Origin: Desulfovibrio sp.
GTDB lineage: Bacteria; Desulfobacterota; Desulfovibrionia; Desulfovibrionales; Desulfovibrionaceae
Direction: 5' to 3'
Length of the DNA stretch: 60,388 nt
Assembly: GCA_016284885.1 (NCBI GenBank)
Contig: JAEEPQ010000002.1
Coordinates: forward strand, 1 to 60,388
A program made the translations under genes and the position numbers. The first letter of the stretch is position 1. The number at the start of each line of letters is the position of its first letter. This document shows, piece after piece, positions 23,873 through 35,510 of the stretch. Under the pieces are notes generated by a model that saw nothing but the letters and a program-made list of their open reading frames with translations, had not been told where the DNA came from and did no database searches.

Positions 23873-25420
23873 CTAGAAGCTGTACTTGAACATGCAGGAC
23901 ACGCGGTAGTTGTCGCGGTAGACGTTGGAATGCCTTCCCTCGCCCCAGGTGTCCTTGTCCAGGTTCAGGCGCACGTAGGCGCCCTCAAGCTGGAAGGTCA
24001 GATTCTCGTATATCTTGTAGGTGTTCACGAGGTTGACTTCCCAGGCGTTGTCCTTGGTGGTGAGATAGGCCATGGGGCCGTCGGCGCGGTTCGGCCAGTT
24101 CATGCCGATGCGCCCGGGCATGTCGCTGCTGTTGGTGCCGAGGTAGAAGCCGACGCGGACGAGGTGAGTCAGGTCGGGAACAAAGGAGATCTTGTCGATC
24201 TGGGCGATGACGCCCGCCGTGCCGCCGGGGTTGTGGCCGAGCACCTTCCAGGTCTGCTCGTCGAAGCAGGGATCGCCGAAGCCGAGGGAGCTGACGGCCC
24301 AGGGAGTGTTGAACTGCGGCAGGCGCTCGGACCCGTTGTAGGGATTGTCGTCGTCGCCGGAACCGTACCAGGCGATGATGCCGGGGACGCCCCAGTCGGC
24401 CTTGTAGTCGAGGCGGGCGCCAGCGTACCAGCCCTGGCGCTTCATCTGCAGGGTGCGACCCTTGTCGCCGAAGCCGCCGTAGTTCTTGATTTCGCCAAGG
24501 TACACGGATCCAAAGGCGCCTTCGACGCCAAGACGCAGGGTGCCCGTCAGATCGAACTGGCCCACGAGGCCGGCCCAGAAGCCGTTGCCCCAGTCGCGGT
24601 CGAGCTTGTGGAGTTCATTGCCCTGCAGCCAAGTGTAGCCGCGGTTGCCACCTGTGGGCACGCCACCGCCGAGGACGGGGGTGAGTCCGCCACGGGGGGC
24701 GACAATGCCGGTGTCGCCCATGGCCGCCGTGACGCCGGTCATGCTGTACTTGCCGATGAGCGAGTACATAGCATAGGGCTCGAGCTTCCAGCCGTCGCCG
24801 CGGAAGGGGAGCATGAGGGCAAAGCAGTCCAGGTTGTCGAGCCACCGGGTCTTCGAATCGGCGACGTTGGTGTACTCCTGGGCGGAGTTGTCGTTGTAGG
24901 GCCTGGCCCAGAAGAAGGTGAGATCGCTCTGCACGCTCTCGCCCTTGAAGAGGGGCGAGGAGACGGAGACACCCGCCATTTCCTTGCCGAAGATGGGGCC
25001 AAAGCCGTACTTGGAGAGCACGCCGGGCAGCATGAGCGTCTGCAGGCCCATGCGAACCTTGGCGTCGGTCTGGGGAACCATCCAGTCAATGTAGGCGAAG
25101 CGGACCTGGACAATCTTGCCGTCAGCGCCGAGGGCGCCGCCGTTAGCGGCCTTGCCCCACTCGGTGCGACCGATTTCGAACTCGATCGTGCCGGAGAGCG
25201 ACTCGCTGGCCCTGGCCTGCAACTGGGTGCGGAATCGCTGGATGGCATCGAAGCTGTCGGAGCCCTTGTAGCCACGGGGAACGACGTTGGAGTGCTCGAA
25301 GCCGACAACCCAGGCGCCGGAGATCTTGTAGTCTATGGACTGCGCTGGGGAGGCAGAGAGGGCGGAGCACAGCAGGGCGCCCGCCAGGGTGGCCAGTACT
25401 TTCTTTCCTGAAATGTGCAT
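23873..25420 (-). CDS. Outer-membrane homotrimeric porin (Desulfovibrio type)
   Basis: General diffusion porin in the outer membrane. ATG 25420 has GGAGG 5 nt upstream and starts a clear signal peptide (MHISGKKVLATLAGALLCSALSASPAQS); the longer track ORF adds 29 residues before it. The mature protein of about 490 residues alternates aromatic and polar residues as in a beta-barrel and ends with MFKYSF, a C-terminal Phe typical for BAM recognition. Segments such as VRFAYIDWMVPQTDAKVRMG fit the family of homotrimeric porins common in Desulfovibrionaceae. It is divergent from the first Crp-type regulator, and a shared palindrome lies between them. Confidence 0.88.
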   Translation of the reverse strand: MHISGKKVLATLAGALLCSALSASPAQSIDYKISGAWVVGFEHSNVVPRGYKGSDSFDAIQRFRTQLQARASESLSGTIEFEIGRTEWGKAANGGALGADGKIVQVRFAYIDWMVPQTDAKVRMGLQTLMLPGVLSKYGFGPIFGKEMAGVSVSSPLFKGESVQSDLTFFWARPYNDNSAQEYTNVADSKTRWLDNLDCFALMLPFRGDGWKLEPYAMYSLIGKYSMTGVTAAMGDTGIVAPRGGLTPVLGGGVPTGGNRGYTWLQGNELHKLDRDWGNGFWAGLVGQFDLTGTLRLGVEGAFGSVYLGEIKNYGGFGDKGRTLQMKRQGWYAGARLDYKADWGVPGIIAWYGSGDDDNPYNGSERLPQFNTPWAVSSLGFGDPCFDEQTWKVLGHNPGGTAGVIAQIDKISFVPDLTHLVRVGFYLGTNSSDMPGRIGMNWPNRADGPMAYLTTKDNAWEVNLVNTYKIYENLTFQLEGAYVRLNLDKDTWGEGRHSNVYRDNYRVSCMFKYSF

Positions 25421-25516
25421 GAAATCCTCCGAAGAAGCGGTTTTGAGTCCCGCCAGACCCGCCTCTGCCAAGGATTTGTGGAAATGCTTCTGCCATGGAT
25501 CCGGCATCTGCGCCTA

Positions 25517-25528
25517 TAGCCCAGGCTA
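25517..25528. promoter_or_regulatory. Palindromic operator, site A (porin / regulator 1 intergenic region)
   Basis: TAGCCCAGGCTA: perfect 5-bp arms TAGCC/GGCTA around a 2-nt centre. The same pattern TAGYCYAGRCTA recurs at 26458 and 27310. On the porin strand a weak -10-like GGCAGA begins 34 nt downstream, the offset seen at the other two sites. Confidence 0.55.
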
Positions 25529-25681
25529 GTTCTCAAAAAAAAGCTTTTTCCGTTTCCTTTTACGCATGGCTCACCGACTGCCCCGGCCCGCGCTCTTTGC
25601 CTCTGTGTCCGATGTTTGCTACTGGTTTCACAAGCTGTCCGAGAGCGTGCCCCGCGAGGGCCGCGGCGACGGGAGGTGCAC

Positions 25682-26407
25682 ATGTCCCACTCAGCCGGAA
25701 CCGGCCTTTTGAAGGCATCGGCCCTTGCCCAGCGCAAGGCGGAATACGAAGCCATCCTGCGATCCATCGGCACCGAGCACGTCCTGCGCAAGGGAGAGAT
25801 CCTGCGCACGGGCAACATCTGCTACCTGCTCAAGGGGCTGTGCATCTTAAGCTTCTACGACCACTGCGGGAACGAGACGACGCTCATCTACTTCGAGCCG
25901 GGGAGGCTCTTCAACTTCATGCCCAAGCTCGTCAAGATCTACCCTCTCCAGCCCAAGACGGTCCGCAGGCAACTGCCCATCGACGCCTTTGCCGTGCGCG
26001 CCAAGGAGGACTGCCTCTTTCTGTTCATCGACCACAACGTCTTCGAGCGCGAGCTGGCAAAGAGCCTCCCCCTGCACTCGCTCCTCGTGCAGTCGCTGAC
26101 CGAAAACTGCGAGAACCTCATCTCCCATGCCGGCAACTCGCCCCTGCTGCCCGCCCCCCAGCGCATCTGCCGGCTGCTGGCGGAGATGATGGCGGAAGAG
26201 CCTCCGCATGCCGTTCCCTCCTACTTGAGCTACAGCGAAATCTCTCTGCACCTGGCCATCCATCCCATCACGGTCGCCAAGATATTCAAGGCGCTGAAGG
26301 AGGACGGCATCACGGAGAGGAAGGGCAGAACGCTGACAGTGGCCGATCCAGAACGCCTGTGCGCCATAGCCCGCGGCATGGAGGACTTCGAGTACAAGCG
26401 TTCCTAG
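25682..26407 (+). CDS. Crp/Fnr-family transcription regulator, copy 1
   Basis: 241 residues: a cyclic-nucleotide-binding-type beta-roll (about residues 20-125), a long dimer helix, and a Crp-type winged helix (about 165-225) with recognition helix HPITVAKIFKALKEDGI. GGGAGG lies 5 nt before ATG 25682; the track start at 25616 adds 22 residues. The Cys cluster of oxygen-sensing Fnr and a full cAMP phosphate-binding cassette are both absent, so the ligand is unknown. It is a tandem paralogue of the next gene (AGNSPLLPAPQRICRLLAE is shared exactly). Position between porin and permease operon, with recurring palindromes, suggests control of this region. Confidence 0.88.
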   Translation: MSHSAGTGLLKASALAQRKAEYEAILRSIGTEHVLRKGEILRTGNICYLLKGLCILSFYDHCGNETTLIYFEPGRLFNFMPKLVKIYPLQPKTVRRQLPIDAFAVRAKEDCLFLFIDHNVFERELAKSLPLHSLLVQSLTENCENLISHAGNSPLLPAPQRICRLLAEMMAEEPPHAVPSYLSYSEISLHLAIHPITVAKIFKALKEDGITERKGRTLTVADPERLCAIARGMEDFEYKRS

Positions 26408-26424
26408 CCTGCCGGACAGGCTTT
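26406..26424 (+). terminator. Small terminator after regulator 1
   Basis: 6-bp stem AGCCTG/CAGGCT overlapping the stop codon, loop CCGGA, then TTTCTGG. Short but well placed. Confidence 0.45.
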
Positions 26425-26457
26425 CTGGCCCTCTGGCCACGCCGGGACGGCTCTCCG

Positions 26458-26497
26458 TAGCCTAGACTAATACCGGACCCTGGCTCCCTGCTGTAGA
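26458..26497 (+). promoter_or_regulatory. Palindromic operator site B with -10 box, promoter of regulator 2
   Basis: TAGCCTAGACTA at 26458-26469, followed by ATACCG; TGTAGA begins at 26492, 34 nt after the start of the palindrome. Site C has the same layout. No good -35 is present, as expected for a class II activator site centred near -41. Regulator 2 (or its paralogue) may act here, giving autoregulation; this is inference. Confidence 0.55.
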
Positions 26498-26510
26498 GCT
26501 GTGGCAGATG

Positions 26511-26535
26511 CGGGGCGCCGGCTGGCGGCGCCCTG
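26511..26535 (+). promoter_or_regulatory. Hairpin in the leader of regulator 2
   Basis: A 7-bp perfect stem (GGGCGCC/GGCGCCC) extended by a G-T and a C-G pair, 7-nt loop, ending 10 nt before the AGGAG Shine-Dalgarno sequence. It may affect message stability or translation. Confidence 0.4.
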
Positions 26536-26556
26536 CCAAAACGACAGGAGTCCAGC

Positions 26557-27312
26557 GTGAACAGTCACGGCAAGGAAGCCAGGGAGGACGTGGCGGCGCG
26601 CAGGCAGGCCTGCGAGGCTCTGCTGCGGCGCATCGGAAAGGAAGAGCGCCTTGCCAAGGGCGCGCTTCTGCTCACGGACCACATCTACTATCTTTTGGAA
26701 GGCCTCTGCGCGCTGATCCACTTCGGCCCGCTCGGCGAGGAGAGCTCCCTTATCTACTTTGAAGCGGGACGGATGCTGAATTTCCTGCCCAAGCTCTCCC
26801 GGATCTACCCCATGCAGCCAAAGACCCTGCGCCGCAGGCAGCCCCGCGACACCTTCGCCGTGCGCGCCAAGTCGGCCTGCCGGCTTGTGCGCATCGACCA
26901 CGACGTCTTCCTGCGCGAGCTTGAGCAAAGCGCCCTCCTGCACAGCCTGCTTGAGCAGTCGCTGATGGAAAACTGCCTCAACCTCCTGGCCAGAGCCGGC
27001 AACTCGCCCCTGCTGCCCGCCCCCCAGCGCATCTGCCGGTTGCTGGCAGAACTCATGCCGGAACGTGCGCCCTACAGGCTGCCCCGGTACATGAGCTACG
27101 CCGAAATGGCCGTGCACCTTTCCATCCATCCCGTCACGGTGGCCAGAATCTTTCAGGCCCTCAAGGCCGAAGGCATAGCCTGGCGGGATGGCGGAGCGAT
27201 CTGCGTCTTCGATCCGGAGCGCCTGCGCCGCATGGCCTGCGGGGAGGAGGCGCTTGCCTACAAGCGCGCCGCGTCCGGATCAGAAAAAAATGAGAAAAAA
27301 AGCGCACGTTAG
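26557..27312 (+). CDS. Crp/Fnr-family transcription regulator, copy 2
   Basis: 251 residues with a GTG start at 26557 (AGGAG 6 nt upstream). Same architecture as copy 1: beta-roll effector domain, dimer helix, Crp-type HTH with HPVTVARIFQALKAEGI. Roughly half the residues match copy 1 by eye, including the effector-domain block EAGRMLNFLPKLSRIYPMQPK. The tail is Lys/Glu-rich and extra. The stop lies at 27312, inside palindrome site C, so regulator 2 and the permease operon are tightly linked. Ligand unknown. Confidence 0.88.
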   Translation: MNSHGKEAREDVAARRQACEALLRRIGKEERLAKGALLLTDHIYYLLEGLCALIHFGPLGEESSLIYFEAGRMLNFLPKLSRIYPMQPKTLRRRQPRDTFAVRAKSACRLVRIDHDVFLRELEQSALLHSLLEQSLMENCLNLLARAGNSPLLPAPQRICRLLAELMPERAPYRLPRYMSYAEMAVHLSIHPVTVARIFQALKAEGIAWRDGGAICVFDPERLRRMACGEEALAYKRAASGSEKNEKKSAR

Positions 27313-27349
27313 TCCAGGCTAATACTGCCGCCTGCAGGCTTTCTGTACA
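27310..27349 (+). promoter_or_regulatory. Palindromic operator site C with -10 box, promoter of the permease-sulfotransferase operon
   Basis: TAGTCCAGGCTA at 27310-27321, followed by ATACTG; TGTACA begins at 27344, again exactly 34 nt after the palindrome start. This would place the palindrome centre near -41 from a start around 27356. It overlaps the stop codon of regulator 2. Confidence 0.6.
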
Positions 27350-27411
27350 CAGGAGCCATCAAGAGTCCCCGTCAGACCCGCAAGCCCCATTCCCCTGAGG
27401 AGAGTATCAGA

Positions 27412-28947
27412 ATGGAACAAGCTCGCGAAAAAACCTCGGTCATGCCCCTCGTGCACACGCTCATCGGCCTGGCCATCATGTTCTCGGGACACTTTCTGCC
27501 CTGCCTGTCCCTAGTGGCCCCTGCAGACCAGAAGCTGCTCGGCCTCGGCTTCCCGCAGGTTGACGGGGGCGTTCTGCTCAGCGTCACCCACACGGGCATG
27601 GTCGTCTCCATGATCTTCTTCGGCGTCATCTACCTGTGGACCTTCGTCGACACCATCTGGCCGGGCCTGCTCGGCATCGTCGCCCTCATCTTCAGCGGCT
27701 TCGCGCCGGCACCCAAGGTCCTGCAGATGTTCCTCGGCAATCCCATGGTCGTCATGATCTTCTTCCTGCTGATTCTGGCGGCGGCCATCGTCTACAGCAA
27801 CCTTGCCGAGTGGATAGCCCGCTACCTCATGAGCCGGGAGTTCATCAACGGCAGGCCATGGATCTTCACGGCCACCATCCTGCTCACGACCTACCTCGTG
27901 GCCTTCCTCGACCAGCCGACGGCGTGCTTCCTCATGTGGCCCGTGCTCTTCTCTATCTTCAAAGCCGCAGGCTTCAAGAAGGGCGACACCTACGTCTCGG
28001 TCATGACGGTCTACATCGCCATCATGGCCCTGCTCTCCTTCGCCTCCGACCCCTTCAAGGGCGGCGCCTTCTATCTGCTCTCCAACCTGCACAGCCTGGC
28101 CGCCAACGACGCGGCCCTCCACGCCCCCGAGCTCAACACAGCCGTCTACCTGCTCTTCGGCCTCGCCATCTCCCTGTGCAGCATCGCGATCCTTATGCTC
28201 ATGATGCGCTTCGTCTTCCGCGTGGACGTTGCTCCGCTGGCAAAGCTCGACCCCTCGGTGCTCAACAAGGAGCCGCTCCCGCCCATGAACGCCATGCAGA
28301 AGCTCGTGCTCTTCGACTTCCTGCTCTACGCCACCTGGCTGCTCCTGCCCGCCGTCATCGGCAAGGGCAACGTGGTCGGCGCCTTCATGGCCAAGCACCA
28401 TATGGCCGGATCCCTGCTCGCCGTGCTCCTGCTCACCGTGGTTTTCGTCAAGCGCAAGCCCGTGGTCGACATCACCGTGTCCAACAGGGCCTACCCCTGG
28501 CGCGTCTTCCTGCTCATCGCCGTCGCCATGCTGCTCGGCGGCGTCATGACAGGCAAGGGCACCAACGTCTCCCTCTTCATGGAGTACGGCCTGCGCGATC
28601 TGCTCGGCGGCATGCACTACATCACCTTCACCATCGCCGTCTGCCTCATCGGCATCGTCTTCACCAACTTCTGCAACTCGGTTGTGCTGGGCCTGGTGCT
28701 CACCCCGGTGCTCATCTCCGTGGCCAACGCCTTCGGCATGGGCGGCGGCCCCATGATGGCCTGCTTCATCTACGCCGTGCTCATCGCGGCCTGCACGCCG
28801 GCAGCCTCGCCCTTCGCGGCCCTGCTCTTCGGCAACACCGAGTGGGTCGATCAGAGCCTCATCATCCGCTACAGCGTCATTGCCTCCCTGTGCATCTTCC
28901 TCGTGGTGTGCACCGTCGGCCTCCCGCTTGCCATGATGCTCTTCTAG
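27412..28947 (+). CDS. IT-superfamily (SLC13/ArsB-NhaD-like) permease
   Basis: 511-residue polytopic inner-membrane protein with about 11-13 hydrophobic segments spread over its whole length. The two internal halves each carry a polar, helix-breaking stretch (FLDQPTACFLMWPV and FTNFCNSVVLGLVLTPV), typical of secondary transporters of the ion-transporter superfamily, which carry sulfate, dicarboxylates or related anions. The substrate cannot be read from sequence. It is the first gene of an operon with trxB, trx and the sulfotransferase (gaps of 61, 39 and 31 nt), so import of an organic sulfate or its product is a reasonable guess. Confidence 0.8.
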   Translation: MEQAREKTSVMPLVHTLIGLAIMFSGHFLPCLSLVAPADQKLLGLGFPQVDGGVLLSVTHTGMVVSMIFFGVIYLWTFVDTIWPGLLGIVALIFSGFAPAPKVLQMFLGNPMVVMIFFLLILAAAIVYSNLAEWIARYLMSREFINGRPWIFTATILLTTYLVAFLDQPTACFLMWPVLFSIFKAAGFKKGDTYVSVMTVYIAIMALLSFASDPFKGGAFYLLSNLHSLAANDAALHAPELNTAVYLLFGLAISLCSIAILMLMMRFVFRVDVAPLAKLDPSVLNKEPLPPMNAMQKLVLFDFLLYATWLLLPAVIGKGNVVGAFMAKHHMAGSLLAVLLLTVVFVKRKPVVDITVSNRAYPWRVFLLIAVAMLLGGVMTGKGTNVSLFMEYGLRDLLGGMHYITFTIAVCLIGIVFTNFCNSVVLGLVLTPVLISVANAFGMGGGPMMACFIYAVLIAACTPAASPFAALLFGNTEWVDQSLIIRYSVIASLCIFLVVCTVGLPLAMMLF

Positions 28948-29008
28948 CCCGCAACCAGCCATCTTTCACAGCGCACCCAACTTTCATCCTTCCTTCCGAG
29001 GTACCAGC

Positions 29009-29938
29009 ATGGACAGCAACAAGTACGACATCGTCATCGTCGGCGCCGGCCCCTCCGGCCTCACCGCCTCCGTCTACGCCGTCAGGGCCAACATGAAGAC
29101 CCTGCTGCTCGACAAGCTCTCCCCCGGCGGCCAGATCATCAACACCAACGAGATTGCCAACTACCTTGGCGTGGGCACCATCAACGGCGCCCAGCTCGCC
29201 ATCCAGATGTTCGAGCAGTCCCAGGCCGCCGGCGCCGAATTCGACTACAAGACCGTGACCGCCATCGAGGATCACGGCGACACCAAGGTCGTGGTCTGCG
29301 AAGAGGACGGGGCCCGCATCGAGTGCCATGCCGTCATTGTTGCCACCGGCACCCGCCCCCGCCGCCTCGGCGTGCCCGGCGAGGACAATTTCGCCGGCTC
29401 CGGCATCAGCTGGTGCGCCATCTGCGACGGCGCCCAGTACGAGGGCAAGGACGTGGTCGTCATCGGCGGCGGCAACTCTGCCGTCGAGGAGTCCATCTAC
29501 CTCGCCGGCATCGTCAACAAGCTCACCGTCGTCACCATGTTCGACCTCACCGCCGACCCCTCGGCCTGCGACAAGCTGCGCGCCATGCCCAACGTCACTG
29601 TCTACCCCTACCAGGACATCCTCGAGTTCCTGGGCGAGGATAAGCTCGAAGGCGTGCGCTTCAAGTCCACCAAGGAGGACGCCACCGAGCGCACCGTGAA
29701 GTGCGACGGCGTCTTCGAGTACATCGGCCTGCAGCCCACCGCCGGCTTCTGCGAGAGCCTCGGCATTCTGGACCGCGGCTTCATCAAGACCGACGCCCAG
29801 ATGCGCACCTCCATGCCCGGCGTCTTCGCCTGCGGCGACATCATCGTCAAGCAGCTGCGCCAGGTCGCCACCGCCTGCGGCGACGGTGCCGTCGCGGCCC
29901 ACAACGCGGCCGCCTACGTCGAATCTCTGCGCAAGTAG
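29009..29938 (+). CDS. Thioredoxin-reductase-like flavoprotein without the usual NADPH motif
   Basis: 309 residues with FAD-binding VGAGPSGLTA, redox-active CAIC (residues 136-139), the second Rossmann motif GGGNSAVEES (153-162) and CGDI near the end. The NADPH-phosphate-binding HRRxxxR of classical TrxB is missing; TMFDLTADP occupies that position (176-184). The enzyme may use NADH, reduced ferredoxin or another donor. It is co-transcribed with a thioredoxin (39 nt) and an aryl-sulfotransferase, so it probably serves that dedicated thioredoxin rather than general redox balance. FAD-linked disulfide reductase identity is sure; donor is inference. Confidence 0.85.
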   Translation: MDSNKYDIVIVGAGPSGLTASVYAVRANMKTLLLDKLSPGGQIINTNEIANYLGVGTINGAQLAIQMFEQSQAAGAEFDYKTVTAIEDHGDTKVVVCEEDGARIECHAVIVATGTRPRRLGVPGEDNFAGSGISWCAICDGAQYEGKDVVVIGGGNSAVEESIYLAGIVNKLTVVTMFDLTADPSACDKLRAMPNVTVYPYQDILEFLGEDKLEGVRFKSTKEDATERTVKCDGVFEYIGLQPTAGFCESLGILDRGFIKTDAQMRTSMPGVFACGDIIVKQLRQVATACGDGAVAAHNAAAYVESLRK

Positions 29939-29977
29939 TGCACAGCATATTTCCCTTCACTCCAAGGAGACCCCGCC

Positions 29978-30289
29978 ATGATCACCGAAGTCAACACCGC
30001 CCAGTACGATGCCCTCGACAAGAAGGGCCCCATGCTCGTCGAATTCTACTCCAAGACCTGCGGTCCCTGCAAAATGCTCGGCTTTGTCCTCAAGGACGTG
30101 GACAAGAACGACCCGGACTTCCGCATCTACCAGGTCGAGTTCAACGAGAACAAGGAGCTCAAGGACCGCTGCGGCGTGAAGGGCTTCCCCACCCTGCTCT
30201 TCATGAAGGACGGCCAGGAGGTCTCCCGTCTCGAGGGCCTCAAGCAGAAGCCCGTCATTCTCAAGGAAATCGAAAAGATCAAAGCCTAA
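29978..30289 (+). CDS. Thioredoxin with TCGPC active site
   Basis: 103 residues, standard thioredoxin fold. The active site is C28-G-P-C31 preceded by Thr instead of the usual Trp, and the cis-Pro loop GFPTLLF is present. AAGGAG precedes the ATG. It lies 31 nt before the sulfotransferase. No signal peptide, so it acts in the cytoplasm, the same compartment predicted for the sulfotransferase. Confidence 0.93.
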   Translation: MITEVNTAQYDALDKKGPMLVEFYSKTCGPCKMLGFVLKDVDKNDPDFRIYQVEFNENKELKDRCGVKGFPTLLFMKDGQEVSRLEGLKQKPVILKEIEKIKA

Positions 30290-30320
30290 GACACAAGGAA
30301 ACATACAGGAGAACACAGCC

Positions 30321-32201
30321 ATGGCAAACCGCGTCGAACACGTCCGCTACGACCACCTGATCACCCGCCAGAACCGCGCCGAGAAGGAGTTCCTGGCCCG
30401 CCTCGAAAACGAGAAGCCCCGCCTCGACAACGCCATCGTCGTCGTCAACCCCTACCTCATCAACCCCCTGGCGGCCATGATACTCTTCAAGAGCGACAAG
30501 CCCGCCAAGGCCGTCCTCACCGTCCATGGCAAGCGCAACGACCGCGAGGACATCGTCCACGAGTTCCCCGAAGCCACGTCCCACGCCCTGCCCGTGCTCG
30601 GCCTCTACGAGGGCATGCAGACCCGCGTCACCGTCGCCCTCTCCACCGGCGAATCCCAGGACTTCCTGATCCAGAGCCAGCCCCTGCCCAAGGGCATCTG
30701 CCGCTGCCGCAACGTCGCCACTTCCCTCGACTACTTTGGCACCAACTGGATGTTCCTCAGCCCTGCCGGCAAGAACCTGCCCACCGCCTTCGACTACAGG
30801 GGCGACATCCGCTGGATACTCACCGAGAACACCATGTTCGACATCAAGCGCGTGAAGAACGGCAACATCATCACCGGCTCCTCCCGCTTCTGCCACATGC
30901 CCTACAACTCCACGGGCCTCATCGAGCTCAATCTGCTCGGCAAGATCTACAAAGAATACCGCATGCCCGGCTGCTACCACCACGACCACTTCGAGATGCC
31001 CGACGGCAATCTTCTGGTCTGCACCCAGGACTTCTCCCGCGACACCGTCGAGGACATGCTCGTCCTCCTCGACCGCGAGACCGGCGAAGTGCTGCGCAGC
31101 TGGGACTACAGGAACATGCTGCCCCAGGACGTGGCCGGCTCCGGCTCCCAGGACCACCACGACTGGTTCCACAACAACGCCGTATGGTGGAACGAGAAGG
31201 ACAATTCCGTCACCATCTCCGGTCGCCACCAGGACGCCGTGGTGAACTTCGACTACGAAACGGGCAAGGTGAACTGGATTGTCGGCGATCCCGAAGGCTG
31301 GCCTGAAGACATGCAGAAGTACTTCTTCAAGCCTGTGGGCGATCTCTCCAAGTTCGACTGGCAGTACGAGCAGCATGCCTGCGTCATCTGCCCCGACGGC
31401 GACGTCATGTGCTTCGACAACGGCCACTGGCGCTCCAAGAACAAGGAGAAGTACCTCAAGAACAGGGACAACTTCTCCCGTGGCGTGCGCTACCGCATCG
31501 ACACCAAGAAGATGGAGATCGAGCAGGTCTGGCAGTACGGCAAGGAGCTTGGCCAGGACTTCTTCTCGCCCTACATCTGCAACGTCGAATACTACGGCGA
31601 AGGCCACTACCTGGTCCACTCCGGCGGCATAGGCTGGGACCACGGCTGGGCCTCGGAGAAGCTCGGCGCCTACATCAAGCTCGGCGACGAGGGCTACGAC
31701 ATCAACTCCAAGACCGTTGAGCTCAAGGACGACGTGGTCATGTACTACCTCGAGGTGGACGGCAACTTCTACCGCGCCGAGAAGCTCACCCCATACCATG
31801 ACGGCGACAACGCCCCCTTCGGCGACGGCAAGCTCCTTGGCCAGCTCGAGGTGACCCCCGACTTCGGCACCATTCCGGATCTCGAGGAGACCTCCGAAGT
31901 CGTGGACGCCTGGAACCAGATCCGCATCGAAGAGGACGAAGACCGCCTGGTCTTCCACGGCCGCTTCCAGCGCGGCCAGCTCGCCATGGTCATCATGGAC
32001 AACGGCAGCGAGAAGAAGGGCTACTTCATCAATACCGCGGCCGTGAGCTACCTTGCCATGTGCTCCGGCGCCTTCCTTGAGGACGACGACCGCGTCATCA
32101 AGATGAACATCAGCAAGAGCAGCCTGCCCGCCGGCAAGTGCGAGGTGAAGGTGCTCGTGGAAGACAGGATCTTCCAGACCGGCGTCGTCATCTGCAACTA
32201 G
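30321..32201 (+). CDS. Arylsulfate sulfotransferase (ASST family), predicted cytosolic
   Basis: PAPS-independent sulfotransferase that moves sulfate from one aryl or organic sulfate to another acceptor through a sulfo-histidine. 626 residues: N-terminal beta-sandwich (about 30-120), then a six-bladed propeller. Catalytic positions match the E. coli enzyme: CYHHDHF (H220/H221), DWFHNN (H284), SGRHQD (R302; exactly 18 residues after H284, as His356-Arg374 in E. coli) and YEQHACVIC (H352, the likely sulfo-His). Unlike E. coli ASST it has no signal peptide. C354 and C357 form a CxxC next to H352. The gene ends an operon with permease, reductase and thioredoxin. A terminator follows. Confidence 0.9.
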   Translation: MANRVEHVRYDHLITRQNRAEKEFLARLENEKPRLDNAIVVVNPYLINPLAAMILFKSDKPAKAVLTVHGKRNDREDIVHEFPEATSHALPVLGLYEGMQTRVTVALSTGESQDFLIQSQPLPKGICRCRNVATSLDYFGTNWMFLSPAGKNLPTAFDYRGDIRWILTENTMFDIKRVKNGNIITGSSRFCHMPYNSTGLIELNLLGKIYKEYRMPGCYHHDHFEMPDGNLLVCTQDFSRDTVEDMLVLLDRETGEVLRSWDYRNMLPQDVAGSGSQDHHDWFHNNAVWWNEKDNSVTISGRHQDAVVNFDYETGKVNWIVGDPEGWPEDMQKYFFKPVGDLSKFDWQYEQHACVICPDGDVMCFDNGHWRSKNKEKYLKNRDNFSRGVRYRIDTKKMEIEQVWQYGKELGQDFFSPYICNVEYYGEGHYLVHSGGIGWDHGWASEKLGAYIKLGDEGYDINSKTVELKDDVVMYYLEVDGNFYRAEKLTPYHDGDNAPFGDGKLLGQLEVTPDFGTIPDLEETSEVVDAWNQIRIEEDEDRLVFHGRFQRGQLAMVIMDNGSEKKGYFINTAAVSYLAMCSGAFLEDDDRVIKMNISKSSLPAGKCEVKVLVEDRIFQTGVVICN

Positions 32202-32251
32202 CCTTCCCCTTCCCTTTCCTCATACGCTATTCCACATTCTCCCTTAGCTTG

Positions 32252-32287
32252 AAGCGCCCCGCCCCGTCTCCGGGACGGGGCGCTTTC
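32252..32287 (+). terminator. Terminator of the permease-sulfotransferase operon
   Basis: Outer 10-bp stem AAGCGCCCCG/CGGGGCGCTT (32252-32261 with 32276-32285), with a competing inner 9-bp stem, then TTTCTG. It separates the operon from the downstream alkyl-sulfatase-like gene. Confidence 0.8.
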
Positions 32288-32306
32288 TGCCCTTAAGGAG
32301 GCAGGC

Positions 32307-33614
32307 ATGGCTTTCGTTTCCTATCCCGGCTTCGCCGTTCCTGAAGGGGTGCGACACGCTCCTCTCGCCCGGCGCACCGTCCGGCCGCATCCGGACGTGC
32401 TGGCCTTCGTGGGCTACAGCTCCTCCATCTTCTCGGCCATCAGGACGCCGCACGGCTATTATCTGGTCGATGCCGGCGACGACGTGCCGGGCGTGCGGGA
32501 CGCGCTTGCCGAAATCAGACGCTTTGCGCCAGGCACCCTTCAGGGCATCTTCCTGACCCACAGCCACCCCGACCACCGGGGCGGAGGGAGCATCTTCCTC
32601 GAGGAGGCCAGAGGACGGGAGATCCCCGTTTGGGCTCACCATGCCTTCGGGAGCGAAATGCAGGACGGCCGGGGCCTCGAGCGGATTCTGCAGACACGGG
32701 CAGGCCGGCAGTTCGGAGCTGGCATCCCCGATGCCGAGTACACGTCCAACTCCCTGCTTCCGCACTTTCCAGGAGGCTTTGCCGGCCCCCTGCTGCAACC
32801 GAACCGCCAGATCTTCGAAGGCAGGACGCGTCTCTACGCCGACGATCTCGCCGTGGATCTGCTGACCGTTCCCACGGAGACCGGCGACCACATGGAAGTC
32901 TTTCTGCCCGAGAGCCGGGTGCTCTTCTCGGGCGACGCCGTCTACGGCGCCCTCCCCAACCTCTATCCCCTGCGCGGAGGATGCTGGCGCCAGGCTGAAC
33001 GCTGGACGCAGGGCATACGGCGCCTGCTGGAGCTCGATCCCGAGGCCGCCGTGTGCGGACACAACCTGGTGCTACAGGGCCGGCAGGCGGTGCGCCAGGC
33101 CTTCGAGCGCTGCGCCAACGCCATCGAATGCATCGTGGCCGAAACGCTCAAGGGCATGGACGAGGGGCTGGGACCGGACGAGCTCGCCTGCCGGGTGCGC
33201 CTGCCCGAGGAGCTTGCGCGCGACCCCAATCTTGGCGAATTCTACGGCGCCGTGCCCTTTATCGTGCGCGAAATCTACGTAGCCAAAATGGGCTGGTTCG
33301 ACGGCAATGCGACGAACGTCGTTCCTTTGGATCCCTGGGAGGAGGCGGAGCGCCTGGCCAGGCTTGCGGGTGGCGCGGCGGCTCTGGCCGCGCAGGCGCA
33401 GAGCGCGCTTGCCGAAGGCGACTGGCGCTGGACCTGCCGGCTCTGCGACTGGCTCCTGCGCCTTGGTCCCGAGCATGCCGCGACAGCCCGCGGCATGAAG
33501 GCCGAGGCGCTGGAGGCGCTCTCGCAGGAAATCCTGCCCATGGCGGGACGCAACTGGCTCAAGTCCTCTGCCATGGCATTGCGGGAGGAAGGGCAGGAGG
33601 ATGCCGGGCAGTAG
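32307..33614 (+). CDS. Alkyl-sulfatase-like metallo-beta-lactamase protein (type III sulfatase family)
   Basis: 435 residues, TTAAGGAGG upstream of ATG 32307. The metallo-beta-lactamase domain holds THSHPDH (H85, H87, D89, H90), E191 in PTETGDH, D210 in FSGDAV and CGHN (H252). LPNLYPLRGG and the C-terminal block FYGAVPFIVREIYVAKMGWFDGN followed by a four-helix region match the dimerisation domain of SdsA1-type alkylsulfatases. It should hydrolyse organic sulfate esters, but lacks the signal peptide of secreted relatives. Placed right after the sulfotransferase terminator; it may be transcribed by read-through or its own promoter. Substrate is unproven. Confidence 0.72.
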   Translation: MAFVSYPGFAVPEGVRHAPLARRTVRPHPDVLAFVGYSSSIFSAIRTPHGYYLVDAGDDVPGVRDALAEIRRFAPGTLQGIFLTHSHPDHRGGGSIFLEEARGREIPVWAHHAFGSEMQDGRGLERILQTRAGRQFGAGIPDAEYTSNSLLPHFPGGFAGPLLQPNRQIFEGRTRLYADDLAVDLLTVPTETGDHMEVFLPESRVLFSGDAVYGALPNLYPLRGGCWRQAERWTQGIRRLLELDPEAAVCGHNLVLQGRQAVRQAFERCANAIECIVAETLKGMDEGLGPDELACRVRLPEELARDPNLGEFYGAVPFIVREIYVAKMGWFDGNATNVVPLDPWEEAERLARLAGGAAALAAQAQSALAEGDWRWTCRLCDWLLRLGPEHAATARGMKAEALEALSQEILPMAGRNWLKSSAMALREEGQEDAGQ

Positions 33615-33779: not shown

Positions 33780-33808
33780 TTGCCTGCCGCCAGAAAGCCA
33801 GATAGCAT
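33780..33808 (+). promoter_or_regulatory. Candidate promoter of the AAA-ATPase gene
   Basis: TTGCCT (33780-33785), 17-nt spacer, TAGCAT (33803-33808), 40 nt before the ATG at 33849. Four of six consensus bases in each box. Confidence 0.4.
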
Positions 33809-33848
33809 GCTCCAAGTCCAGACAACACATGACGACAGGAGCACAGCC

Positions 33849-35510
33849 ATGCTCAGCCCGCGCATTCTTATTGGCGGAGAATCCTTTCGGGAACTTCGCG
33901 AAGGGAACTACGCCTATATCGACAAGACAGCGCTCTTGGAGGATCTCCTCGGCCAGGACAGGCCCAAGGTAGCCTTGATTACGCGCCCGCGTCGCTTTGG
34001 CAAGACCCTGACAATGAGCATGCTGCATGAGTTTTTCGATATCCAGAGAAACAGCAACAATATTTTCAATGGATTGGCTATTGCTGAAAATACAGATTTC
34101 TGTGCGACATGGATGAATAAATTCCCAACCATATTTATATCGTTAAAAGAAATAAAAGGAAGAACATTTTCTCATTCATACGACAAGTTTTTAAGCTATG
34201 TTTCAGAAATTTTCTTAGACAACAGCTATCTTCTCCATAGTGAAAAGATCCATAACAGGCACAAAGAAAGAATTCAGTCGTTTATTGATGAAAAAGTAAA
34301 GCAAAACGATACTGAAAATTCATTTTTATTTTTGTGCAAAGTTTTAAATAAATATTGGAACAAAAAAGTTATAGTTCTTATTGATGAATACGATGTTCCG
34401 CTTTATTATTCAGAGCAAAAGGGCTATTATGATGAAATGATTGATTTTATGCGTCAATTTTTAGGGGCAACATTAAAAGGAAATGACTATTTAGAACTAG
34501 CCGTATTAACAGGATGTCTACGAATTGCAAAAGAAAGCATTTTTACAGGGGTTAATAATTTTGAATGTTACGGTGTTTCTGACATAAAAATTTCAGATAA
34601 AATTGGATTTACAAGTAGTGATGTTGACTTAATACTAAATGTTAATAAATTAGAGTACAAAAAAAATATTATAAAAGAATGGTATGATGGATATAGGTTT
34701 GGCAACACAAGTGAAATGTATTGCCCGTGGGATGTTTTAAGATTTGTTTCAAATCTTAAGTATGATCCAAATGTTTTGCCAGAATCATTTTGGGTTAACA
34801 GTAGTTCAAATGATATCATCGAAAAGATGATTAAGCACTCAACAATGAGCATAAGGCAAAAAATTGAAAAATTGGTTTCATTAAAATACATAAATGAAAG
34901 AGTCTCAGAATATCTTACATACGATTCTCTTTACACAAATGATGAAAACATTTGGTCAATATTATATTCTACAGGATATTTGACAAAATCTGAAACAGAA
35001 TCTAAAAATGGAACTACTTCGCTCAAAATACCAAATAAAGAAGTTCTTGAAATTTTTGTACAAACAATAAAGCAGTGGGTTAAAACGGTAATTGATAAAA
35101 ACATTTCTCATCTTTTAGAAAATTTCTGGAAAGGCGACGAAAAATCTATTGAAAATATTCTGAATACAATTCTGTTGCAAACGATAAGCTACCATGACAA
35201 CGCCGAAAACTACTATCATGGCTTTGCAACGGCCTTGTTTGTCGGCACCCCGCTTGAGGTGACCAGCAACCGCGAAAGCGGCGACGGCCGTCCCGATGTT
35301 GTCGTTGCCGATCCCGACGGCCGGCGAGGCTTCGTGCTTGAACTCAAGCATGCCGAGTCGGAAGACGCCCTGGAAGCTGGCGTCCAGGAGGCGCTCGACC
35401 AGATAGCGAAGTTCAGATATCTCGACGGCCTGCCCGCAGGCATGAAGCAGCGCCGCGCCTACGGCATTGCCTTCCATAAGAAGCATTGCGCCGTCAGGCT
35501 CTTCCGCTGA
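33849..35510 (+). CDS. AAA-ATPase / PD-(D/E)XK nuclease-like protein (PF09820 + DUF1703 type)
   Basis: 553 residues of a multi-copy family common in Bacteroidetes and gut sulfate reducers; role unknown, with defence or mobile-element links proposed. N-terminal AAA domain: YIDKTALLEDLL, Walker A RPRRFGKTLTMSM, Walker B VIVLIDEYDVPL. C-terminal PD-(D/E)XK-like end: GRPDVVVADPDGRRGFVLELK. ATG 33849 has AGGAG 7 nt upstream; the track start adds 23 residues. The 5' 190 nt and 3' 330 nt have host-like GC, but the centre is very AT-rich, with Lys, Asn and Ile codons unlike the neighbours. It appears to be a recombinant mosaic. Confidence 0.85.
   Translation: MLSPRILIGGESFRELREGNYAYIDKTALLEDLLGQDRPKVALITRPRRFGKTLTMSMLHEFFDIQRNSNNIFNGLAIAENTDFCATWMNKFPTIFISLKEIKGRTFSHSYDKFLSYVSEIFLDNSYLLHSEKIHNRHKERIQSFIDEKVKQNDTENSFLFLCKVLNKYWNKKVIVLIDEYDVPLYYSEQKGYYDEMIDFMRQFLGATLKGNDYLELAVLTGCLRIAKESIFTGVNNFECYGVSDIKISDKIGFTSSDVDLILNVNKLEYKKNIIKEWYDGYRFGNTSEMYCPWDVLRFVSNLKYDPNVLPESFWVNSSSNDIIEKMIKHSTMSIRQKIEKLVSLKYINERVSEYLTYDSLYTNDENIWSILYSTGYLTKSETESKNGTTSLKIPNKEVLEIFVQTIKQWVKTVIDKNISHLLENFWKGDEKSIENILNTILLQTISYHDNAENYYHGFATALFVGTPLEVTSNRESGDGRPDVVVADPDGRRGFVLELKHAESEDALEAGVQEALDQIAKFRYLDGLPAGMKQRRAYGIAFHKKHCAVRLFR
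34040..35185 (+). other. AT-rich core inside the AAA-ATPase gene
   Basis: A stretch of about 1.15 kb of clearly low GC, rich in AAA, AAT and TTT, flanked on both sides by GC-rich sequence in the same open reading frame. It is the strongest composition break in the window and suggests acquired DNA whose ends were replaced by, or recombined with, host-like paralogues. Confidence 0.8.

Follow-up and report, generated by a model that had tools for sequence, protein, structure and literature searches.

The window, by which we mean the whole stretch of DNA analysed, comprises 60,388 nucleotides of Desulfovibrio sp. (assembly GCA_016284885.1, contig JAEEPQ010000002.1). It encodes a short alkylsulfatase-like metallo-beta-lactamase (MBL) protein, P0001, whose gene follows an arylsulfotransferase (ASST) gene on the same strand. 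Listed are coordinates in the window, strand and feature.

23873-25507, minus strand: porin (DESULF_POR1)
25616-26407 and 26557-27312, plus strand: two CRP-like regulators
27412-28947, plus strand: CitMHS-type permease
29009-29938, plus strand: TrxB
29978-30289, plus strand: Trx
30321-32201, plus strand: ASST, 626 aa, without signal peptide (PF05935, 346.8 bits)
32251-32286, plus strand: terminator-like hairpin in the gap between the ASST and MBL genes (z -4.29, 0 of 200 shuffles as stable)
32307-33614, plus strand: gene of the short alkylsulfatase-like MBL protein P0001, 435 aa (open reading frame and translation)

The P0001 reading frame is exact, running from an ATG at 32307 to a stop codon at 33612-33614 behind a ribosome site, AAGGAGG, at 32295-32301. 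Its GC content per codon position (0.73/0.49/0.81) is typical of a live gene, and relatives match it at 51-54% identity over nearly the full length. A sigma-70 scan of the region revealed no plus-strand promoter for the MBL gene. Immediately 3' of it, at 33780-35510, lies an AAA-ATPase_like/PDDEXK_9 gene with a GC content of 28-40% in a region of 60-70% GC, which is a recent acquisition; contig C88 of the same genome carries a 30% identical copy, near another S3-like gene.

P0001 is composed of an MBL domain and an alkyl-sulfatase dimerisation domain. Listed are the domains and the residues discussed below.

32439-33062, plus strand: metallo-beta-lactamase domain, residues 45-252 (PF00753, 1.8e-17)
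32559-32576, plus strand: HxHxDH ligands H85, H87, D89 and H90 (H85-S-H-P-D-H90; invariant in a 39-protein alignment)
32877-32879, plus strand: E191, the Glu metal ligand (SdsAP E303)
32931-32990, plus strand: sulfate-binding loop G209-R228 with metal ligand D210 and N218, R223 and R228 (S3 consensus)
33060-33062, plus strand: H252, the last metal ligand (aligns with SdsAP H367)
33174-33587, plus strand: alkyl-sulfatase dimerisation domain, residues 290-427 (PF14863, 5.9e-34)

The PF14863 match reaches 117.9 bits against a cut-off of 26. An earlier note, made from the letters alone, had taken the region around KMGWFDGN (starting at residue 327) for an SdsA1-like dimerisation block and had named a failure to match this domain as an argument against its own reading; given the strong match, the block stands. 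The chain ends 8 residues past the dimerisation domain. A Pfam search detected no SCP2-like C-terminal domain (PF14864) in P0001, though this domain does match the full-length relative L126. The missing SCP2 tail, on which the earlier note did not remark, is a real oddity of the protein. Could it have been lost through a frameshift or a premature stop? We rejected this explanation: the 1.2 kb 3' of P0001 contain nothing convincing as an SCP2-like remnant, and the short form is found in 18 other proteins.

Hydropathy and the upstream stop revealed neither a signal peptide nor a lipoprotein signal in P0001. Only 18 codons separate the start from the upstream stop (open frame of 453 aa). On the Kyte-Doolittle scale, the N-terminus reaches no more than 1.15 in its most hydrophobic stretch of 12 residues, compared with about 2.2 to 3.8 for most of the full-length relatives that are exported. 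Both observations agree with the earlier claim that a signal peptide is lacking, and P0001 probably stays in the cytosol. An AlphaFold2 model of P0001 (mean pLDDT 91.8, pTM 0.89) was compared with the PDB by Foldseek. The first 13 matches are all class III sulfatase chains (E-values 1e-24 to 5e-27), followed by PqsE, LACTB2, TTHA1429 and similar proteins. Query-normalised TM-scores are about 0.7 with an overall rmsd of about 12 A; the high rmsd implies that the two domains are poorly matched in how they are placed relative to each other, so that the fold search backs the family and not the details of the predicted fold. At the sequence level, strong PDB matches are confined to Pisa1, SdsA1, SdsAP and two YjcS proteins (1e-27 to 1.5e-31).

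SdsAP has seven zinc ligands, H192, H194, D196, H197, E303, E322 and H367 (PMC5426288), with which H85, H87, D89, H90, E191, D210 and H252 of P0001 align in this order. The HxHxDH site read from the letters is thus present, as H85-S-H-P-D-H90. The Glu ligand, SdsAP E303, has been reported only for alkylsulfatases (PMC5426288); in P0001 it lies in the motif TETGDH, which starts at residue 190, and its position is Glu in 65 of 65 proteins compared. The loop Ala298-Arg317 of SdsA1 is sulfate-binding and underlies an S3 consensus of 20 positions, 13 of them specified (PMC5066984). N218, R223, G224 and R228 of P0001 align with this loop, and 12 of the 13 specified positions agree, A211 being the miss. 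A single one of 2000 shuffled versions of P0001 comes as close to the pattern. Two close relatives match it at 13 of 13 positions and the others miss one or two. With rare exceptions, the metal ligands, N218, R223, G224 and R228 are kept across 65 relatives.

Does the Asp of FSGDAV (starting at residue 207) set P0001 apart, as the comparison with ordinary MBL hydrolases in the earlier note suggested? Position 210 is Asp in 19/19 short proteins and in 27/28 full-length proteins of Desulfobacterota, and Glu in 16/18 SdsA1-like proteins. The S3 pattern permits Asp at this position (PMC5066984). Pisa1, a proven sulfatase, has Asp here in our alignment, and the SdsAP paper likewise notes Asp in place of Glu among the Pisa1 zinc ligands (PMC5426288). 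Shared by Pisa1 and most members of the non-SdsA1 half, the Asp is therefore not special, and it had to be dropped as a distinguishing mark. A further difference lies at position 217, which is Pro in the short proteins and the full-length ones of Desulfobacterota, and His in SdsA1-like ones. P217 of P0001 occupies the position of SdsA1 H306, and Pro is found throughout the non-SdsA1 half.

How widespread is the short form? The search for relatives covered 79 genomes from the genus, 395 from the phylum and 348 from the order. They fall into two types: full-length proteins of about 570-630 aa with some 110-137 extra C-terminal residues and mostly an exported-type N-terminus, and short proteins of about 430-460 aa with neither. 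A maximum-likelihood tree of 69 proteins unites 17 short proteins from Desulfovibrionaceae in a single clade (support 100/98), in which none (0/17) has a signal-like N-terminus or the extra C-terminus. The branch without signal peptide that the earlier note had suspected is therefore real, as judged from these sequences. P0001 sits in a six-member subclade (100/100) with orthologues of 44-54% identity in genomes G629, G630, G624, G065 and G718; the ten members of a second short subclade are confined to the sister genus g286. Further short relatives occur in Marinomonas (L063) and in another Desulfobacterota genome, G377. Altogether, the short architecture comprises 19 proteins in two subclades, three genera of the family, Marinomonas and this last genome, and a single clade for all 19 is not rejected (AU test, p = 0.377). 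A search of named genomes with P0001 returned one distant match, in Marinomonas. The genome that encodes P0001 also carries two S3 paralogues, one of full length on contig C311 and a diverged one on contig C88 in which the sulfate loop is not recognisable. We found no description of the short branch in the literature; it is apparently unnamed and a modest variation on a known enzyme.

Two members deviate from the rest. Genome G016 contains a broken, 43-46% identical copy of the short MBL gene (L025:714-1827) that has frame changes and an internal TGA; its start is possibly signal-like, and the neighbouring AraC-type gene is interrupted as well. We considered that TGA might be read as Trp, and rejected this because the frame also changes and the AraC-type gene is broken; for the same reasons, a pseudogene or a poor contig is likelier. 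Its signal-like start means that export may apply to some members. In G065, the orthologue of P0001 (L064:8491-10017, 51-52% identity) has an in-frame N-terminal HTH_11-like segment that scores 24.2 bits, slightly below the 25-bit cut-off, and its own ribosome site at L064:8491; going by its sequence, it is a possible DNA-binding sulfatase fusion.

What is the relation of P0001 to the genes upstream? The ASST at 30321-32201 aligns with E. coli AssT at the catalytic His and the residues next to it; the stretch carrying the disulfide cysteines of E. coli AssT is absent. The cassette that this ASST closes (porin-CRP-permease-TrxB-Trx-ASST, 23873-32201) shows synteny, with varying completeness, in ten further genomes from the genus. 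The tandem CRP/FNR-like genes at 25616-27312 both match the lone regulator of related cassettes and are a local duplication. As a thioredoxin system and a sulfuryl-transfer enzyme are neighbours here in a sulfidogen, one might speculate that a sulfuryl group is passed to a thiol, with ATP-free release of sulfite. No MBL match was found near the cassette at any of the 11 cassette loci, two or three of which lie on contigs that end soon after the ASST, and G065 and G016 carry a short MBL gene (broken in G016) without a close ASST or cassette. The 105-nt gap between the ASST and MBL genes folds at -40.3 kcal/mol. Of five other cassettes folded, four likewise have a strong hairpin just 3' of their ASST gene, so the hairpin at 32251-32286 looks like the cassette terminator, and the MBL gene is accordingly a unit of its own, or fed by read-through, with good probability. 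We therefore rejected an ASST-MBL operon, which finds no support within the genus: there are cassettes without the MBL gene, MBL genes without the cassette, and a hairpin between the two at this locus. The ASST does lie directly upstream on the same strand, as had been claimed, but no conserved operon in the lineage backs the pairing, and the upstream enzyme is at most a loose functional partner.

Adjacency to an ASST does recur in the sister genus. In the g286 subclade, the short MBL gene is convergent with the gene of a different, 482-aa ASST, and TRAP transporter genes come next. Up to eight genomes have this arrangement, all within one shared block. The 626-aa and 482-aa ASSTs fall in different subfamilies. 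ASST genes are present in 14 of 15 short-MBL genomes compared with 112 of 348 in the order (Fisher p 8e-7, kinship ignored); the short-MBL genomes with ASST are close relatives of one another. Two ASST adjacencies would arise by chance at about 5e-4, a rough and post hoc figure. Members of g286 show an expansion of ASST (PF05935) to as many as about 20 per genome, in long tandem arrays (G614:C2:212719-233167, G616:C27, G626:C4, G630:C1:2325145-2334424), which raises the chance of adjacency. No recurring operon partner was found for the subclade of P0001 (subclade A). A link to thioredoxin in G614 and G616 was judged coincidental, the Trx genes there being part of a housekeeping run, FBPase-TsaD-Trx-TrxB-YfiO. 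In Marinomonas sp. KMM3893 (L063:5404-12719), the genes DctP-DctQ-DctM-S1 sulfatase-short MBL-aldehyde dehydrogenase follow one another closely on one strand; a LysR-type regulator gene in divergent orientation and a gene for a sulfate permease lie close by. This run is a probable organosulfate catabolic operon, and of all the gene neighbourhoods it argues best for short members acting on imported organosulfates.

Judged by residues and family, P0001 likely works like a class III sulfatase, and we consider it fairly probable that it is a cytosolic, dinuclear-zinc enzyme of this type in short form, acting on small imported organosulfates. A permease would bring small soluble organosulfates to the protein, a presumed dimer. 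Zn1 would be held by D89, H90, H252 and D210, and Zn2 by H85, H87, E191 and D210. By analogy to class III enzymes, a water molecule activated between the two zinc ions would attack the substrate, the sulfate group of which would be gripped by N218, R223 and R228; Pisa1 reportedly inverts at carbon. Alcohol and sulfate would be released in the cytosol, where the sulfidogenic host could assimilate or respire the freed sulfate. Small soluble substrates are the likelier ones because P0001 has neither an SCP2-like domain for long aliphatic chains nor an export signal. For the same two reasons, the lack of a lipid-recruiting domain and of export, a different ester specificity is plausible, as the earlier note proposed.

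Several points stand against a cytosolic sulfatase: identity to characterised sulfatases is only 23-26%, SdsA1 H306 is replaced by Pro in P0001 and its whole half of the family, subclade A has no recurring operon partner, and the broken G016 copy seemingly starts with a signal. We know of no characterised enzyme in the non-SdsA1 half. Could P0001 then be another MBL-fold hydrolase, a thioesterase, lactonase, phosphodiesterase or similar, on a kept alkylsulfatase scaffold? The combination of Asp210 and Pro217 occurs in no characterised S3 enzyme, and PqsE, LACTB2 and TTHA1429 are the next fold matches; yet E191 is kept in every sequence and N218/R223/R228 are almost invariant, and we hold such a change of activity to be rather unlikely. 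We grant a similarly small chance to a pathway that pairs the MBL protein, as the enzyme releasing sulfate, with the cytosolic ASST encoded upstream, and in which the two together move or remove the sulfuryl group of imported organosulfates. The adjacency at this locus, its convergent counterpart next to a TRAP transporter in the other subclade and genus, and the ASST frequency in short-MBL genomes favour it; the close cassettes without a short MBL gene, the absence of the cassette from G065 and G016, the intervening hairpin, the distinct ASST subfamilies and the abundance of ASST genes in the sister genus count against it.

A role as sensor or regulator, in which the dimeric sulfatase-like domain would bind or hydrolyse an organosulfate that serves as a signal, is suggested by the HTH_11-like segment of the G065 orthologue. 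This segment is found in that one genome and not in P0001 or other members, and a single-sequence structure model of the fusion (pLDDT 45.7) was unusable, which leaves a regulatory role highly improbable. Scarcely credible is a decaying, truncated alkylsulfatase that has lost signal peptide, SCP2 domain and function: although the G016 copy is frameshifted and interrupted and full-length exported paralogues exist in the P0001 genome (C311), 19 proteins share the same short form with invariant catalytic residues, no C-terminal remnant lies downstream, and codon-position GC is that of a live gene.

Class III sulfatases are known as large, detergent-acting enzymes with a lipid-binding tail. If the sulfatase reading of P0001 is true, a short cytosolic branch in sulfate- or sulfite-respirers would suggest that small sulfate esters are used inside the cell, where they would be a possible sulfur source for gut hydrogen sulfide; the SCP2-like tail would be dispensable, leaving a compact sulfatase scaffold. 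More speculative, and in our estimate quite doubtful, is the idea that the short clade is a separate subfamily of cytosolic organosulfatases in gut-type Desulfovibrionaceae, which would act along with the expanded PAPS-independent ASSTs and importers so that sulfate esters from host or diet yield, within the cell, sulfate that these sulfidogens can respire. If the enzyme proves to be an ordinary sulfatase, a known family is extended only modestly. The function assigned here is predicted from sequence and genomic context. The metal-dependent bile salt hydrolases of Bilophila described in a 2026 preprint belong to the amidohydrolase superfamily and are unrelated.

How does P0001 compare with known class III sulfatases? 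SulfAtlas assigns to S3 proteins with at least 30% identity to SdsA1 over about 600 residues (PMC5066984), and P0001, at 435 aa, reaches about 25% over about 420 columns. It possesses the HxHxDH site, the dimerisation domain and the Glu ligand of class III, but not the SCP2-like domain, which has been described as recruiting aliphatic substrates (PMC5066984). Falling short in both identity and architecture, P0001 represents a short variant branch rather than a full S3 member. The full-length Desulfobacterota S3-like proteins (L036, L039, L046) share with it the G/A-D...P-N...R-G...R loop and the half of the tree; in most of them the N-terminus resembles that of a lipoprotein or a membrane anchor, and every complete one extends 110-137 residues further at the C-terminus. 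The primary alkylsulfatases SdsA1 and SdsAP (PDB 2CFU, 4NUR) resemble P0001 in their two domains, ligand positions and sulfate loop. They are only 23-25% identical to it, long, and equipped with an SCP2-like domain; their bridging Glu is Asp in P0001, and their pocket Tyr (SdsA1 Y223, SdsAP Y246; PMC5426288) corresponds to F136. The best match in sequence and fold is the Pseudomonas sec-alkylsulfatase Pisa1 (PDB 2YHE, 4AXH; class III/SulfAtlas S3), which has in common with P0001 the MBL and dimerisation domains, the ligand set with the Glu191 and Asp210 positions, and the sulfate-binding Asn/Arg/Arg. Unlike P0001, to which it is about 26% identical, Pisa1 has His at the position of P217, is extended at its N-terminus and carries an SCP2-like domain, reaching about 660 aa.
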